Origin: Desulfuromonas sp. | Lineage (GTDB): Bacteria; Desulfobacterota; Desulfuromonadia; Desulfuromonadales; BM501 | Reading direction: 5' to 3' | Length of the DNA: 53,436 nucleotides | NCBI RefSeq assembly: GCF_002868845.1 | Contig: NZ_PKUB01000052.1 | Span: 1-53,436, forward strand | Shown here: positions 19,200-35,388 of the stretch, piece after piece | Layout: every line of letters starts with the position of its first letter | How positions within the stretch are numbered: position 1 is the stretch's first letter | Made by a program: the position numbers and the translations under genes | The notes under the pieces: model-generated | Told to the model about the DNA's origin: nothing | Database searches by the model: none | Seen by the model: the letters and a program-made list of their open reading frames with translations, nothing else

Positions 19200-19226
19200 G
19201 GGTATTAGCCGGGGTCAGGTCGTGAA

Positions 19227-19274
19227 CTGAGGGGACGGTATCCCCCTTCAGATCCGGCCGCGGGATTTTCCCGC
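19227..19274 (+). promoter_or_regulatory. Paired hairpins in the rplT leader
   Basis: Two stems lie between rpmI and rplT. One joins 19227-19235 to 19241-19251 and contains a 2-nt bulge; the other is GCGGGA/TCCCGC at 19260-19274. In other bacteria L20 represses this operon by binding structured leader RNA that mimics its 23S site. These hairpins are candidates for such control, but I cannot match the L20 site from sequence alone. Confidence 0.4.
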
Positions 19275-19299
19275 TCATTATCCAGAGAAGGAGAAAGAG

Positions 19300-35007: not shown

Positions 35008-35265
35008 TCAATCCTCCAGGCCCAATTCCTCCGTCATGCGCAGAACGAAATTTTTCGCCCGACCCGAAGGGGCGAGCATCCCATAAGCCATGGCTTCCTT
35101 GAGTTCCGCCTCGCTGGCACCTGCCTGCTTCGCGACCGCGAAGTGTTTGGCCAGTCAGTCGGGGCATCCCACCGCCACCGCACACCCGACCCGAATCAGT
35201 TCCCTCGTCCTGGGGTCCAGGACTTCCTCGTATTCGTAATCGAAAACCTTCTGACGGGTTTTCAT
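35008..35265 (-). CDS. CMD/AhpD-like selenoprotein (TGA-encoded Sec37)
   Basis: Read through one TGA, this minus-strand frame gives 85 residues: MKTRQKVFDYEYEEVLD..., RELIRVGCAVAVGCPD-U-LAKHFAVAKQAG, then a helical tail ending EELGLED. The motif C34-P-D-U37-x3-H41, with E22 upstream, matches the E...CxxC...H active site of AhpD/carboxymuconolactone decarboxylase-like thiol peroxidase partners, with Sec replacing the second Cys. ATG follows a perfect AGGAGG. TGA at 35157-35155 is followed 11 nt later by a strong hairpin with a GGUC loop. AhpD-like selenoproteins are known in metagenomes and related bacteria. Its role is probably thiol redox or peroxide defence; the partner is unknown. Simple ORF calling would miss or truncate it. 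Confidence 0.88.
35128..35143 (-). promoter_or_regulatory. Bacterial SECIS hairpin
   Basis: In the mRNA, CUUCGC-GGUC-GCGAAG forms a perfect 6-bp stem. Its loop starts with G and contains GU, as in the fdhF SECIS that binds SelB. The loop begins 17 nt after the UGA, inside the usual window for bacterial SECIS elements. It lies within the coding sequence, as bacterial SECIS elements do. Confidence 0.85.
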
Positions 35266-35388
35266 CCTTTTGCCTCCTATGAACAGGTTTCGGTCAACTG
35301 GACCCTCGACTTAGATATGATATCATTGAACCATCGATGCATCCTTAAGCTATCATTCTTTTGTTGTATCTTTGAAGGGAGGCTCGGC

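Follow-up and report, generated by a model that had tools for sequence, protein, structure and literature searches.

The stretch from 35008 to 35265 on the minus strand of the window (the whole 53,436-nucleotide stretch of Desulfuromonas sp. DNA that was analysed) is almost certainly a real and complete selenoprotein gene, and our main reading, that it is such a gene and that its product carries out thiol/peroxide redox chemistry of the AhpD type, is given a probability of about two in three. The gene itself, its family membership, the presence of a selenocysteine (Sec) machinery in the genome, a constraint at the RNA level, the spacing of the active site and the predicted fold were all established by computation.

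The frame opens with an ATG at 35265 and meets a TGA after 36 codons (codon 37); 48 codons further on stands a second TGA (codon 86), which is directly adjoined by a third. An earlier note on this DNA had described a frame of this layout behind a perfect AGGAGG, and all of its coordinates proved exact to the base. With Sec at codon 37, translation yields MKTRQKVFDYEYEEVLDPRTRELIRVGCAVAVGCPDULAKHFAVAKQAGASEAELKEAMAYGMLAPSGRAKNFVLRMTEELGLED, and the active-site motif of this 85-residue product reads C34-P-D-U37-L-A-K-H41, so that the first TGA indeed stands within C-P-D-U-x3-H, as had been claimed. The UGA is followed by 11 nt and then by CUUCGC-GGUC-GCGAAG, a 6-bp stem with a 4-nt loop; the spacer, the perfect stem and the GGUC loop are thus seen in the sequence just as reported. 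The mechanical list of open reading frames holds overlapping frames alone at 35008-35265, in line with the remark that standard gene calling would give only shadows here. Only gene callers that treat every TGA as a stop would miss the gene, since a curated model of the family exists and its listing among selenoproteins dates from 2006. The coordinates of all features are collected in Table 1.

Table 1. Coordinates of the selenoprotein gene, of its parts and of related genes elsewhere in the genome (C37 and C56 are contigs).
Feature	Position	Strand	Evidence
Gene for an 85-residue selenoprotein with Sec37 (GSU3128 family, NF041047), ending with TGA at codon 86	35008..35265	(-)	NF041047 and Pfam CMD matches, translation
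In-frame TGA, Sec codon 37, second residue of C-x-x-U	35155..35157	(-)	Same TGA in 138/138 loci read; tRNA-Sec, selA, selB and selD in genome
SECIS hairpin CUUCGC-GGUC-GCGAAG, UGA-to-apical-loop distance 17 nt	35128..35143	(-)	Synonymous-site conservation and pair-preserving changes family-wide
Ribosome-binding site AGGAGG, ATG 7 nt further on	35273..35278	(-)	Sequence
Second CxxU CMD protein L164, 94 residues, Sec44	C37:925-1206	(+)	In-frame TGA, own hairpin
tRNA-Sec	C56:70593-70684		75.7 bits, over cut-off; ARAGORN agrees
selA	C56:65497-66867		615 bits, over cut-off
selB	C56:63575-65443		390.3 bits, over cut-off
selD (L018), one in-frame TGA	C56:62561-63484		356.1 bits, over cut-off

The product is a protein of the CMD/AhpD fold, a further member of an already described family and nothing different in kind. 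In a protein search it matched the curated model NF041047, "GSU3128 family (seleno)protein", with E=2.4e-47 and 158.9 bits (curated cut-off 110) over positions 1-83 of 84, and in a search of the genome itself with 152.2 bits, again above the cut-off; the CxxU of this family is present as C34-P-D-U37. Pfam CMD (PF02627) was matched with E=9.9e-15 and 54.8 bits (cut-off 23). The AhpD-like parts of the arsenite methyltransferase/AhpD selenoprotein (NF041537, E=4.2e-11) and of the selenoprotein MduS (NF045649, E=4e-10) match as well, yet with 42 and 39 bits against cut-offs of 510 and 380, respectively, and an 85-residue product leaves no room for a methyltransferase domain. In the available text of a 2006 survey (PMC1794560), Geobacter sulfurreducens and G. 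uraniumreducens are credited with a selenoprotein called "distant AhpD homolog", and the accessible part of a 2026 review tabulates a "Distant alkylhydroperoxidase (AhpD) homolog" under NF041047, with the motif CxxU (PMC13188914). From the equal names in these portions of the two sources we read the 2006 and 2026 entries as one family; the earlier note, too, had stated that AhpD-like selenoproteins had been reported. A literature search for the locus tag GSU3128 by name returned nothing.

Among solved structures, those closest in sequence are 7y4r (E=4.2e-9) and 3bey (E=1.3e-7), and a Cys occupies the site equivalent to Sec37 in the three solved chains with alignments shown. Structure prediction from a 34-row alignment, in which Sec was lettered C, gave a mean pLDDT of 93.8 for the 85-residue product. 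In a Foldseek comparison of the predicted fold, 7y4r (titled RclX; TMq 0.72) and 3bey (TMq 0.70) came out on top, with E<=0.001 for one match only, and M. tuberculosis AhpD (1gu9) had E=0.81.

The catalytic relay of M. tuberculosis AhpD includes, according to the available text of PMC3141380, Glu118, Cys130, Cys133 and His137. When the window product is compared with this enzyme and with the AhpD-like protein PA0269, Glu22, Cys34, Sec37 and His41 prove to be equally spaced (Glu-x11-Cys-x2-Cys/Sec-x3-His; same portion of PMC3141380), and the CMD fold, predicted in the case of the window product, is common to both sides. The window product differs in that Sec takes the place of the second Cys, in that Asp36 is found where His132/Tyr50 stand in the relay as given in the accessible source, and in that it is only about half as long as the M. 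tuberculosis AhpD chains. Glu22, Cys34, Sec37 (lettered C) and His41 are invariant in the 34-row alignment; at position 36 the window product has Asp, and most of the relatives listed have Asp or Thr there. A Sec where an AhpD-type arrangement has its second active-site Cys would predict a redox protein, and a putative thiol-redox role agrees with both the family and the geometry of the active site.

We infer that Sec is inserted into this protein in the cell and that the 85-residue product carries out a redox reaction. SelB, acting on the GGUC-loop hairpin just 3' of codon 37, would deliver Sec-tRNA(Sec) to the UGA, and this delivery would allow translation to continue to the complete AhpD-fold protein. 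Sec37 and Cys34 would form a selenenylsulfide/selenol-thiol pair within the Glu22-Cys34-Sec37-His41 arrangement, and the protein might either reduce peroxides itself or hand electrons to a peroxiredoxin. Donor and substrate can only be inferred: clustering of the flanking frames within 1.5 kb over 138 loci turned up no neighbour common to the family that might point to a partner. No group was present in more than 42 of the 138 loci and no neighbour from the window fell into the 14 largest groups, and the neighbourhood was rejected as a clue to function. Several of the large groups look like antisense shadow frames. The neighbours that could be identified differ by locus (GlnE at L114, Fmt at L122, an AAA ATPase at L127), and those in the window are a UvrD/AddA-like helicase (under the NCBIfam cut-offs), a TauE/SafE protein and a Memo protein. 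At L078, the neighbour matched a sigma-54 ATPase model only, just under the cut-off.

The alternative that survives best accepts a real selenoprotein but assigns it a function other than that of an AhpD-type peroxide/thiol enzyme, for example, in selenium handling or as a regulatory thiol/selenol switch. Such a function would be in keeping with RclX (7y4r) as the nearest solved fold, with Asp36 in place of the relay His/Tyr, with the lack of a conserved gene neighbour in our search, and with the fact that no functional test of the family was found in the available parts of PMC1794560 and PMC13188914. However, the 34-sequence alignment shows no variation at the Glu, Cys, Sec and His of the AhpD relay, and we regard this alternative as rather unlikely, though by no means negligible; AhpD-type redox chemistry is the reading that we prefer.

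The bacterial SECIS rule, as given in the accessible part of PMC13188914, asks for a loop of 3-9 nt with a G in the first two positions, a stem of 4-16 bp and a distance of 16-37 nt from the UGA. The window hairpin conforms to this consensus, with a GGUC loop that starts with GG, 6 bp, and 17 nt from UGA to loop, and CTTCGCGGNCGCGAAG has no second exact copy in the 3.70-Mb genome. The folding energy of the bare 16 nt, -7.1 kcal/mol, is marginal against the limit of -7.5 kcal/mol that is quoted in the same portion of the 2026 review (PMC13188914); longer stretches give -12.3 kcal/mol for 33 nt, which include a second small hairpin, and -18.6 kcal/mol for 66 nt. Folding energy was rejected as evidence, the 66-nt fold having z=+0.41 against shuffles, of which 129 of 200 were as good. 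Codon randomisation of the window sequence alone yields such a hairpin 6.6% of the time. Thus, in view of the z value, the marginal energy and this chance frequency, the case from the single sequence is modest, whereas the conservation throughout the family makes the comparative case strong.

For the comparative analysis, the synonymous codons of 126 distinct 48-mers were randomised by pooled usage in 1000 rounds. All six pairs can form in 122 of the 126 sequences (randomised mean 31.2, maximum 46), and 113 combine 6 bp with a GG loop (mean 7.5, maximum 18). Among the sequences that share the commonest residue at a given position, a single codon accounts for 96, 100, 90, 98, 97 and 98% at +4 to +9 (H F A V A K); the pooled use of these favoured codons is 25-62%, and on either side, at +1 to +3 and +10 to +13, the leading codon reaches 36-66%. 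Uniform codons occur also at -17, -13, -1, +24, +26 and +27 (0.81-0.92), but these are generally favoured ones (0.70-0.72 pooled). The outermost pair is C-G in 121 sequences, U-A in three (L053-L055) and U-G in two, and the second pair is U-A in 122, C-G in three (L106, L108, L109) and broken in one; the third and fourth pairs are broken in four sequences each, and the two pairs adjoining the loop are invariant. In L106, L108 and L109, which belong to one genus, the change of the second pair from U-A to C-G goes together with Phe to Leu and Lys to Arg, which we read as the protein probably following the RNA. It should be noted that the paired changes represent few events in related genomes. 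Judged from these patterns of codons and pairs, the hairpin after the UGA is held at the RNA level in the family.

One genus, g80, departs from the common arrangement. In four distinct sequences (L090, L094, L111 and L119), the original stem is lost and a perfect stem of 6 or 8 bp with the loop GGCA starts three nt later. L046 has the old six pairs with the loop CUUG, and a 4-bp stem with the loop GGCG is possible in the new register. The old six pairs are also present in L056, L057, L066 and L080, with a loop that has no G in the first two positions, and a scan of these four for a conforming hairpin found none. The SECIS appears to be shifted by one codon in L090, L094, L111 and L119, and L046 is a possible intermediate.

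At E<=1e-15, the family was found in 136 of the 277 genomes of the class, all matches being over the cut-off, with one TGA in every listed match. A partial copy at a contig end in G133 has a TAG besides the TGA. The loci that were read number 138: one is the window copy, 136 come from the 135 remaining genomes (two of these from G133, including the partial copy), and the last is a Geomonas silvestris record that repeats genome G177. C-x-x-U with the same TGA is present at the aligned position in all 138, Cys in none, and no Cys form of the family was found in the 277 class genomes at E<=1e-15. A draw of 395 genomes of the phylum gave two matches without a stop (L170 and L171; 50 bits, under the cut-off), and these are CxxC CMD proteins. 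The earlier note would have given up its proposal if no homologue carried Cys or Sec at residue 37; Sec is found there in 138 of 138 loci, and Cys in more distant CMD/AhpD proteins, namely L170, L171 and the three solved chains. Five relatives outside the class that score below the cut-off (L165-L169) have kept the TGA followed by CUUCGC-GGnn-GCGAAG, and a CMD protein in an Actinobacteria MAG (L022, VAYJ01000092.1) has the hairpin CUUCGC-GGGC-GCGAAG, with a stem identical to that of the window family. L022 has, in addition, an apparent U-L-P-U motif with two in-frame TGA. A search for the TGA-hairpin pattern in viral contigs (viral_contigs) gave 0 copies.

The source genome (3.70 Mb, 56 contigs, 99.84% complete) contains tRNA-Sec, selA, selB and selD within about 8 kb on contig C56. 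The inference of the earlier note that the organism has a Sec machinery, which it had tied to the presence of the sel genes, was thus right: selA, selB, selC and selD were all found. The in-frame TGA of selD itself stands in SSG-U-AAK; SelD is listed as a selenoprotein in the accessible tables of PMC1794560. With a criterion of E<=1e-60, selA is present in 234 of the 277 class genomes. The family and selA occur together in 129 genomes, the family only in 7, selA only in 105 and neither in 36, that is, selA accompanies the family in 129 of 136 genomes versus 105 of 141 without the family (Fisher P=1.8e-6, uncorrected for relatedness). Among the seven genomes with the family and without selA, tRNA-Sec is over the cut-off in G010 (48.2 bits, cut-off 47), G045, G106 and G236, and selB in G208; the same tRNA-Sec search also took in G205 and G149. 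In G217 (96% complete) and G227 (99%), neither selA (E<=1e-60) nor tRNA-Sec (E<=1e-6) was detected, and the selB matches stayed below the cut-off (best 114 and 98 bits); both genomes retain the TGA-containing gene and the hairpin despite the undetected machinery. Both an unassembled and a recently lost sel cluster are possible in these two genomes.

These data also bear on two readings without Sec. A true stop at the TGA, which would leave a decayed AhpD-like pseudogene or a 36-residue peptide, could be argued from the ordinary role of UGA and from the near-complete genomes G217 and G227, but it is highly improbable given that all 138 loci share the TGA, with conserved residues before and after it, that codon choice is frozen in the hairpin and that the genome has a Sec machinery. 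The chance is equally minute that near-cognate readthrough, for example, places another residue at the UGA, or that the UGA is a sequencing error over a Cys codon: readthrough frames are known in other systems and one base separates TGC from TGA, but the genome has a tRNA-Sec, a Cys codon is found at the site in 0 of 138 loci, and the hairpin is constrained at synonymous sites.

A wider picture of this selenoprotein family can be drawn only tentatively, at somewhat less than even odds. Sec may have become locked in, with no Cys version found in the 277 class genomes; the hairpin may dictate the HFAVAK that follows the active site, the simultaneous replacement of F by L and of K by R in one genus serving an RNA pair; and in g80 the SECIS may have slipped by exactly one codon, a shift of which possible intermediates can still be seen. 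The 85-residue selenoprotein gene was recognisable from raw sequence. In the 136 genomes with the family, no replacement of Sec by Cys was found and the SECIS places a visible constraint on the protein; with this set one can test what keeps some families from reverting to Cys and how a SECIS shifts its position with respect to the UGA.

The same genome encodes a second CxxU CMD protein, L164, with GGAGG before its ATG and the hairpin CUUGGC-GUC-GCCAGG. L164 matched no curated NCBIfam family over the cut-off (best 58.3 bits, cut-off 380), and Pfam CMD with 44.2 bits. Relatives at E<=1e-8 are present in 64 of the 277 class genomes, and in the best 30 loci of these 64 genomes the Sec site is TGA in 24, Cys in five and Leu (TTA) in one. 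The Cys forms have lost the letters of CUUGGCGU, though other small hairpins remain, and their folding energies are -3.2 to -7.0 kcal/mol versus -8.0 to -16.0 kcal/mol for the Sec forms. The locus with TTA for TGA (L188, genome G132) retains the letters of the hairpin, and the TTA may be an error, a recent mutation or something else. In 11 of the best 30 loci, selA lies directly downstream on the same strand, and printed coordinates add G004, G005, G007, G013, G018 and G020, resulting in 17 of 64 genomes with the L164 family directly upstream of selA, all of them from families f3 and f20; in the source genome, L164 (C37) is not beside selA (C56). The phrase "upstream of selA" was absent from the papers that a literature search on AhpD, selenoprotein and selA returned. 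A CMD-like CxxU selenoprotein is entered under PF02627 in the review table, as far as the table is accessible (PMC13188914), and this entry may or may not be the L164 family. Elsewhere in the window, six tRNA genes between 16370 and 52143 (+) and an L20-Deltaproteobacteria leader at 19218-19293 (+) score over the Rfam thresholds.
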